IMG/VR virus record: IMGVR_UViG_3300025168_000392
Span: 1 to 31,017 of that record
DNA: 31,017 nt
Strand: one strand, 5' to 3'
Origin: a virus
Each line of letters begins with the position of its first letter. Position 1 is the stretch's first letter. The notes under the pieces are model-generated. The model saw only the letters and a program-made list of their open reading frames with translations, was not told the DNA's origin and made no database searches. Shown here one piece after another: positions 3,210 to 4,457 of this stretch. Both the position numbers and the translations under genes were made by a program.

Positions 3210-3488
3210 TTAAGGCCCGTCTTTTTTAGGCGGGTCTTTTTTTGTGAGCTTGTCGAGTAAATCTGCATATCCCGCGATGTCGGTTGAGTGATCTGGGTCT
3301 GCTTGGTTCCCTTCTTTTGACCGAGCAACCTTTAGCAAAATCATCATGCGAACTACGTCTGTAGCCGCGACATCGACCCCAAGGTACGCCGCCCATAGAT
3401 CAGCTATCCGTTGGTGGGTGTGGCGAAAGTCACCGTGCCTGCCGTGCCGGTCTTTGACTGCCTCTGACGCTGCTTCAAGGATGTCCAT
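3210..3488 (-). CDS. DUF6378-like phage protein
   Basis: A 92-residue protein. The sequence DILEAASEAVKDRHGRHGDF, HQRIADLWAAYLGV, ATDVVRMMILLKVAR and DIAGYADLL follows the pattern of the small all-helical phage family DUF6378 (usual form: DYG.P..NF..IA.LWSA.LG...TP..VA..M..LKlaR...D...DIAGY). Function is unknown; relatives are common in phage early regions and look like MazG/dUTPase-type helical bundles, though that relationship is only suggestive. The ATG has AGGAG about 9 bases upstream, located inside the methyltransferase gene end. Its last ten codons encode KDPPKKDGP and double as the terminator hairpin of the opposite strand. Confidence 0.72.
   Translation of the reverse strand: MDILEAASEAVKDRHGRHGDFRHTHQRIADLWAAYLGVDVAATDVVRMMILLKVARSKEGNQADPDHSTDIAGYADLLDKLTKKDPPKKDGP
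3212..3243 (+). terminator. Rho-independent terminator of the rightward late/lysis operon
   Basis: GGCCCG (3214-3219) pairs with CGGGTC (3231-3236), with one G-U pair, followed directly by seven T (3237-3243). The loop is T-rich. It stops plus-strand transcription before it enters the convergent minus-strand arm. It lies inside the last codons of the opposing minus-strand gene. Confidence 0.8.
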
Positions 3489-3489
3489 C
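3475..3489. repeat. 15-bp direct repeat, copy 1 (flanks methyltransferase)
   Basis: The sequence tcaaggatgtccatc is identical at 3475-3489 and 4443-4457, and the flanking bases differ on both sides. On the minus strand this copy holds the methyltransferase stop and the start of the DUF6378-like gene. Confidence 0.9.
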
Positions 3490-4443
3490 TAAGTAAGCTC
3501 CTATAAATTCCGCTGAGACTTGCGGGACGATAGCGTTACCCGCGCCGCGCAGCGTGCCCACCCTGTTGGGAAACCCATTAGCCAGAGGGAAAATGCTGGG
3601 TTCAGCGCGGCGGGCTTTCCCGTCAGCGCAGGGGATGAGGGTTGCGTCAGACCAATGACTTGATCTTCCAGTTTCCATCGGCCCCCGTCTTTTCCGCCGC
3701 CTGTCGGCGTCTTCGGCGTTAGCCAGCCCGCTGTCTGCACTAGGTCGCTTAGGTTCGCCCCAAACGTCCCGCTCGGGCTGACCCGCTGGCCCTTCTCGTT
3801 CAGCGTCCGTCCCGCTGTCTGGTCGCTGACCCTGGGCGTCGGCCACCCCGCCGTTAGAGCTGCCCCCGCCAATGTTGTGCCGCCCGTCTGCGCTGCTGAT
3901 GGGTTGTCTTTGTGTTGAGCGTTTCCTGCCTGACTGGTTGGCGTCGGCCACCCAGAACAATCGCTGCCTGATATGCGGTGCGCCCGCGCCCGCAGCGCAC
4001 AGATCGGCGGCCCCGACAGCATATCGTGCGTCTTCCAAATCAGTGCGTATTCCGCAGAGCCATTCCCGGCCATCCTTGCTCGCAACTTGTTCTCCAAAGA
4101 TCGCTGGAGGTCGGCGCTCGGCGATGAGTTCGTAAAAAGCGGGCCAGAGGTGTCGTTCGTCGGCATGACCTTGTCGCTGTCCCGCGCTCGAAAGCGGCTG
4201 ACAGGGACAGGAGCCGGTCCAGACGGGTCGGTCTTCGGGCCATCCAGCAAGTTGGAGGGCGTAGGACCAGCCGCCGATTCCGGCGAAGAAATGGCACTGA
4301 GTGAACCCGACAAGATCGGACCCCCGAATATCGGTAATTGATCGCTCATCAACCTCTCCCTCTGGTATCAACCCCTCATCAATAAGCTCCCGCAACCATG
4401 CGGCGGCGAACCTGTCGTTTTCGTTGTAATAAGATTTAGACAT
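3475..4443 (-). CDS. DNA (cytosine-5) methyltransferase, phage orphan type
   Basis: A 322-residue C5-cytosine methyltransferase. Motif I FFAGIGGWSYAL (52-63) binds S-adenosylmethionine; motif IV GSCPCQPLSSAG (77-88) contains catalytic C81; motif VI appears as FGEQV (E conserved, Q replacing N); motif VIII is IRQRLFWVADA; motif X is LRGAGNAIVP near the end. The region between VIII and X is a low-complexity string of VADA/LANAE repeats, as usual in this phage subfamily. No restriction enzyme is next to it, so it is probably an orphan enzyme protecting phage DNA. The ATG at 4443 overlaps the upstream TGA (TGATG). The gene is bracketed by an exact 15-bp direct repeat and fully contains a second open frame on the same strand. 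Confidence 0.93.
   Translation of the reverse strand: MSKSYYNENDRFAAAWLRELIDEGLIPEGEVDERSITDIRGSDLVGFTQCHFFAGIGGWSYALQLAGWPEDRPVWTGSCPCQPLSSAGQRQGHADERHLWPAFYELIAERRPPAIFGEQVASKDGREWLCGIRTDLEDARYAVGAADLCAAGAGAPHIRQRLFWVADANQSGRKRSTQRQPISSADGRHNIGGGSSNGGVADAQGQRPDSGTDAEREGPAGQPERDVWGEPKRPSADSGLANAEDADRRRKRRGPMETGRSSHWSDATLIPCADGKARRAEPSIFPLANGFPNRVGTLRGAGNAIVPQVSAEFIGAYLDGHP
3501..4349 (-). CDS. Overprinted open frame inside the methyltransferase gene
   Basis: An 849-base open frame on the same strand as the methyltransferase but in another frame (282 residues). It starts MSDQLPIFGG with a strong, well-placed Shine-Dalgarno (GGGAGAGG, 4353-4360, 3 bases before the ATG). It contains three Trp-Pro blocks (SGWPTPTSQ, AGWPTPRVSD, AGWLTPKTP) and ends with LNPAFSLWLMGFPTGWARC, a string also familiar at the C-terminus of other phage cytosine methyltransferase-associated proteins. 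I recall similar proteins being annotated in many phages beside or over this methyltransferase type. The Trp-Pro blocks are the alternate-frame reading of the host gene's VADA(N/Q) repeats, so conservation could be a passive shadow. Coding status is unresolved. Confidence 0.35.
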   Translation of the reverse strand: MSDQLPIFGGPILSGSLSAISSPESAAGPTPSNLLDGPKTDPSGPAPVPVSRFRARDSDKVMPTNDTSGPLFTNSSPSADLQRSLENKLRARMAGNGSAEYALIWKTHDMLSGPPICALRARAHRISGSDCSGWPTPTSQAGNAQHKDNPSAAQTGGTTLAGAALTAGWPTPRVSDQTAGRTLNEKGQRVSPSGTFGANLSDLVQTAGWLTPKTPTGGGKDGGRWKLEDQVIGLTQPSSPALTGKPAALNPAFSLWLMGFPTGWARCAARVTLSSRKSQRNL

Positions 4444-4457
4444 CAAGGATGTCCATC
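4443..4457. repeat. 15-bp direct repeat, copy 2 (flanks methyltransferase)
   Basis: Second exact copy, 968 bp from the first. On the minus strand it holds the stop of the 77-residue upstream gene, next to the methyltransferase start. Both upstream proteins end in the same residues, DGHP, because of the repeat. Confidence 0.9.

Follow-up and report, generated by a model that had tools for sequence, protein, structure and literature searches.

A putative beta subunit of a phage C5 cytosine methyltransferase encoded in a second frame nested within the catalytic gene

The question raised by this locus is whether a phage cytosine methyltransferase gene encodes a second protein in another phase of the same strand, or whether the second frame simply stays open as a by-product of the first. 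The DNA examined, hereafter the window, is a stretch of 31,017 bp from IMG/VR virus record IMGVR_UViG_3300025168_000392, whose gene content is phage-type and includes terminase, portal, endolysin and primase-helicase genes among others. The methyltransferase gene, ORF1, occupies positions 3475-4443 of the minus strand within an open frame of 3475-4446, and its ATG at 4443 overlaps the stop codon of the upstream ORF. ORF2 is nested entirely within ORF1 in its +1 frame and spans 3501-4352 when read from a TTG or 3501-4349 when read from the ATG (minus strand), coding in the latter case for 282 amino acids followed by a stop. The initial annotation had noticed this 282-codon frame, starting at 4349 with a Shine-Dalgarno sequence of its own, and both features were found in the DNA: the Shine-Dalgarno-like GGGAGAGG lies at 4353-4360 (minus strand), inside ORF1 codons, and its GGGAG portion ends 6 nt 5' of the ORF2 ATG. 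The window also carries a 2OG-Fe(II) oxygenase gene at 743-1426 (phrog_81, 2.7e-28), another possible phage modification enzyme.

ORF1 was assigned to the C5 cytosine methyltransferases by its matches to PF00145 (1e-13; 51.9 bits against a curated cut-off of 22) and phrog_363 (3e-72), and its PCQ, GEQV and PHIRQR blocks were invariant or nearly so across the alignments. The AF2 model of the protein showed a confident catalytic domain, for which Foldseek returned M.HhaI as the top match. Motif VIII (PHIRQRLF, 3955-3978, minus strand) is the last catalytic motif ahead of a variable region (3609-3980, minus strand) in which the VADA/LADA segment of ORF1 lies opposite the WPTP repeats of ORF2, and motif X (GNAIVPQ) follows at 3520-3540. 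Model confidence was low through the variable region up to motif X, with pLDDT values of 40-58 over most of the variable region, and a confidently predicted target-recognition fold was absent from the ORF1 model. No window of the ORF1 profile matched canonical motif IX (best p=0.77). ORF1 shares its catalytic fold and motifs with the canonical M.HhaI and M.HaeIII, single-chain enzymes whose one polypeptide also holds the recognition domain and motif IX; since split C5 enzymes are known, the missing motif does not affect its membership of the catalytic family.

The ORF2 protein matched phrog_1008, a 'DNA methyltransferase' family, over residues 16-268 (4.6e-25), while sequence searches of Pfam, NCBIfam and the PDB with ORF2 returned no match. 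Its AF2 model was poor overall (pLDDT 61.5) and, at this low confidence, gave no PDB fold match in Foldseek. Residues 77-123 were predicted better, with pLDDT 76-87 for most positions, as a helix and beta hairpin (LQRSL..LIWK..SGPPICALRAR; 3981-4121, minus strand) facing the part of ORF1 that separates motif IV from motif VIII, and helices were also predicted at residues 251-273. The repeated GWPTP blocks and the C-terminal string singled out in the initial annotation were both located in ORF2, the former at residues 133-137 and 168-172, with a GWLTP copy at 208-212, and the latter, NPAFSLWLMGFPTGW, at residues 250-264.

In the window the +1 open run reaches 288 codons, compared with an average of about 175 in synonymous-codon shuffles (p about 0.01-0.02), a value too weak for an overprint to be judged from this sequence alone. 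The comparison was thus extended to relatives, namely some 50 viral loci and some 80 from bacterial genomes, fetched by the ORF1 protein or its alignment, blind to ORF2, together with a few further loci, viral or from GenBank phages, added through ORF2 or annotated-phage searches. These relatives are mostly 45-55% identical to the window's ORF1, hence divergent, yet not phylogenetically independent. The shuffle null keeps the protein and the codon usage, treating codons as exchangeable within a gene, and the stop and start counts rest on alignments built in this analysis. Over 128 full-length homologues, the +1 run covered on average 90% of ORF1 as against 45% in the shuffles, and the frame was at least 70% open in 98% of them. 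Frequent stops in relatives had been named at the outset as the outcome that would speak against a real gene, and the opposite was seen: from ORF1 codon 38 to the end of the variable region, 125 relatives contained 13 stops in the +1 frame compared with about 403 in synonymous shuffles. The depletion was found in each segment of this interval (7 observed and 68 expected over codons 38-75, 1 and 81 over codons 75-105, 0 and 117 over codons 105-165, 5 and 138 in the variable region), whereas ahead of the ORF2 start, at codons 1-25, stops were not depleted (165 observed, 129 expected). The +2 frame of ORF1 showed nothing unusual in the shuffle comparison, and in 24 ordinary C5 methyltransferases, taken as a group, the +1 run did not exceed chance (0.19 of the gene versus 0.17 in shuffles). 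One PF00145 locus among these canonical controls (L200) was an exception, with 73% of its ORF open in +1 (0.32 in shuffles, p<0.01), and may represent another overprinted methyltransferase.

The start of the second frame is likewise enriched. A +1 ATG preceded by at least a 5/6 match to AGGAGG occurred within ORF1 codons 21-42 in 52 of the 125 relatives, against 11.2 +- 2.9 in shuffles, and these ATGs cluster at ORF1 codons 27, 33 and 37.

Several loci depart from the common architecture. At L134, ORF1 runs about 140 codons beyond motif X and the +1 run ends sooner, covering 65% of ORF1; at L100 (Consotaella salsifontis, 2001-2579), ORF1 has a stop in the variable region after which the same frame resumes, ORF2 being open throughout; and at L026, tblastn detected a second tandem ORF1-like segment directly downstream of the first (537-1478 and 1505-2209). 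In a lake phage group (L045, L046, L047, L053-L055), indels located within the variable region or ahead of it exchange the frames of the C-terminal parts, so that in L045 the ORF1 N-terminus reads into the ORF2 motif IX block and in L046 and L047 ORF2 reads into the ORF1 motif X; these swaps may be assembly errors, pseudogenes or real frame exchanges.

A protein encoded in the +1 frame should also restrain synonymous change in ORF1, a check proposed in the initial annotation. Four-fold sites were compared in 20 non-redundant close pairs, where the divergence of ORF1 was 0.290 outside the overlap, compared with 0.179, 0.213 and 0.105 in the catalytic, variable and C-terminal parts of the overlap, respectively (Fisher p=2e-4 for non-overlap versus catalytic overlap). 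Flanking genes of the window's clade gave 0.298, and this control is conservative because it includes a few wrong frames, which lower its divergence; the corresponding control for the distant clade described below took wrong frames and was left out of the comparison. Relative synonymous rates were then computed from 478 pairs, which are not independent and serve for description only. Across much of the overlap ORF1 synonymous change was 24-60% of the non-overlap level: the relative rate was about 1 up to codon 75, fell to 0.36-0.74 over codons 76-165, with values of 0.36-0.48 opposite ORF2 residues 77-123, reached 0.24 at codons 271-285, a stretch bordering on and in part shared with the motif IX-like block described below, and returned to 0.85 past the end of ORF2. 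The first ~45 residues of ORF2 imposed no synonymous constraint on ORF1 in these pairs and therefore seem to be kept open rather than conserved. An OLGenie-style dNN/dNS ratio was below 1 but was set aside as proof of selection on ORF2, since position 2 evolves more slowly than position 1 in any gene. Judged from sequence evolution, the stop depletion, start enrichment and synonymous constraint establish ORF2 as a protein-coding frame that is under selection and has a start of its own.

The repeat region allows the two frames to be told apart. Among the most similar pairs within the window's clade, mismatch in the variable region at ORF1 positions 1, 2 and 3 was 0.170, 0.061 and 0.061; the fast position of ORF1 is the third position of ORF2, and the periodicity of this region is therefore that of the ORF2 frame. 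The contrast is lost in divergent pairs of the same clade because the whole variable region has changed there. A distant clade, whose ORF1 and ORF2 match those of the window at 1e-36 and 9e-19, was represented by 370 IMG/VR stretches fetched with the ORF2 protein. Its alignment showed ORF1 periodicity over codons 31-210, ORF2 periodicity over codons 241-360 (0.22-0.29 versus 0.03-0.07), a mixed pattern over codons 361-390 and ORF1 periodicity again at motif X. Fetching by the ORF2 protein favours ORF2 conservation, but the flip occurs within one alignment and also in the clade fetched with ORF1, which answers this bias. The distant clade (L214-L293, L167-L169, L177), with the same +1 overprint, is very common in viral contigs, and its ORF2 has a conserved WLYIP start region and a RTLNPLFVEALMGWPTGW end. 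Selection in the variable region thus acts mainly on ORF2, and the idea that the second frame is a shadow of conserved VADA repeats turned out to be inverted: the repeat region is selected in its WPTP frame, and the VADA/LADA string of ORF1 is the passenger and shadow of that frame.

We then asked what the second protein may contribute. Residues 248-264 of ORF2 (ALNPAFSLWLMGFPTGW; 3558-3608, minus strand) form a block, LNPAxSxWLMGxPxxW, in which W256 and W264 were invariant in 94 sequences. In a profile-profile comparison of ORF2 with canonical motif IX, this block was the top-scoring window, although the match was short and weak (p=0.07); the homologous block again ranked first in the distant clade, also as a weak match (p=0.026), and a strict motif IX PSSM gave a non-significant score for the window's ORF2 (p=0.08). 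The block is followed, across frames, by motif X of ORF1 after 9 codons, compared with about 16 residues in canonical enzymes, a difference that a two-chain enzyme could tolerate. These data are suggestive, though not proof, of a motif IX at the C-terminus of ORF2.

A natural two-polypeptide enzyme offers a close comparison. In M.EcoHK31I the small subunit is encoded in another frame within the gene of the large subunit, and here too coding selection and the start/Shine-Dalgarno signals indicate, from sequence comparison, a second polypeptide inside the large one's gene. According to PMC3404938, which cites Lee, Kam and Shaw (1995), M.EcoHK31I (recognition sequence YGGCCR) consists of two polypeptides, the large one with motifs I-VIII and X, the small one with motif IX alone. 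ORF1, with motifs I-VIII and X and without IX, resembles this large subunit; the literature assigns the target-recognition domain to the large subunit, whereas here the selection on the variable region falls on the small one. M.AquI (CYCGRG), also treated in PMC3404938, is another C5 methyltransferase of two polypeptides, divided within the variable region; its small subunit holds both IX and X, while in the present case alpha retains X, and the genes described here differ from those of M.AquI in being overprinted.

We therefore consider it likely that the nested ORF2 serves as beta subunit in an m5C methyltransferase composed of two polypeptides, both chains being made from the same stretch of DNA. 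Alpha (ORF1) would supply the cofactor-binding and catalytic motifs I-VIII together with motif X, whereas beta (ORF2), read in +1 from its own internal ATG and Shine-Dalgarno sequence, would contribute the segment predicted as helix and hairpin, the WPTP region with its variable sequence, and motif IX. The two chains would assemble, with beta replacing the small domain responsible for target recognition and motif IX, and the middle stretch of alpha would be a linker under little selection that stays open together with the coding sequence of beta. Both the assembly with alpha and the role of beta in target recognition are proposed here on the basis of this arrangement.

ORF2 might be a real protein with a separate role, such as a regulator, an anti-restriction factor or a host-takeover protein, rather than a methyltransferase subunit. 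Its lack of a relative of solved structure or in Pfam and its weak motif IX match agree with such a role, but in the loci examined ORF2 never occurred apart from ORF1, even in the clade where ORF1 matches at only 1e-36, its motif IX-like block sits exactly where ORF1 has none, and the variable region of ORF1 is so little selected in the closest pairs that something else should recognise the DNA; we regard a separate role as rather unlikely. Programmed frameshifting would instead join motifs I-VIII in frame 1, recognition and motif IX in frame 2 and perhaps motif X in frame 1 into a single chain, as the codon periodicity, passing from frame 1 to 2 and back to 1 along the gene, and the indels fusing the frames both ways in lake phages (L045-L047, L055) could suggest. 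Such a chain would need no open frame 2 upstream of the switch, yet stops are depleted there (codons 38-165); two opposite shifts would be required, and an ATG with Shine-Dalgarno sequence is enriched at the start of ORF2 itself, making this mechanism very improbable.

The initial annotation had left the choice between real overprinting and a recurrent shadow, in which the frame would be open only because the methyltransferase uses GC-rich codons and contains VADA repeats. The modest p value of the open run in the window speaks for such a shadow, but shuffles preserving protein and codon usage yielded about 30 times more stops in the overlap, the 24 unrelated C5 methyltransferases as a group had no such frame, the third positions of ORF1 were conserved inside the overlap and not outside, and the coding periodicity of the repeat region belongs to ORF2, not to ORF1. 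The shadow is contradicted by the tests run and is hardly credible, whereas stop depletion and reduced synonymous change favour real overprinting.

Returning to the two-subunit enzyme, the overprinted pair occurs widely across phages and prophages, and annotation often gives the name 'DNA methyltransferase' to both frames. The prediction that databases would hold many annotations of the second frame was borne out by the phrog_1008 family and by several phages in which the two frames are annotated as separate genes, such as Xanthomonas phage PhiXhv-5 and Kagunavirus K1G. In the latter, ORF31 and ORF30 ('C-specific methylase' and 'Mte8-like protein') have the same nested +1 layout, with an ORF1 counterpart about 48% identical and an ORF2 of 230 aa, and are annotated as two genes with their relation unstated. 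In a 299-genome sample, all ORF2 homologues at the loci examined overlapped an ORF1 homologue. The nameable neighbours of bacterial copies were largely phage-type (integrase, primase-polymerase, RecT, RusA and other methyltransferases), and no restriction-enzyme family was found among their 25 commonest neighbour families, which sets the pair apart from M.EcoHK31I and makes protection of phage DNA a likely use. A restriction-linked copy was sought in Enterobacterales, where matches were too few to be informative (2 of 296 genomes, one being the centre genome). The enzyme would thus probably methylate phage DNA against host restriction.

None of the papers searched describes this overprint in phages. 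Nested genes longer than 280 codons on the same strand and so well documented by evolutionary comparison are unusual for double-stranded DNA phages. The present one has been overlooked, as both frames are named 'DNA methyltransferase' or one is dropped. On balance, we favour the broader view that the catalytic core lies in frame 1, recognition and motif IX in frame 2 only and motif X again in frame 1, that the variable region of ORF1 is a functionless passenger, and that this arrangement is older than the split of two very distant clades, so that a large group of phage C5 enzymes would be misannotated two-frame heterodimers. If the recognition region does lie in frame 2, annotation, specificity prediction and cloning of many phage methyltransferases, where based on just the annotated gene, may have used the wrong frame.
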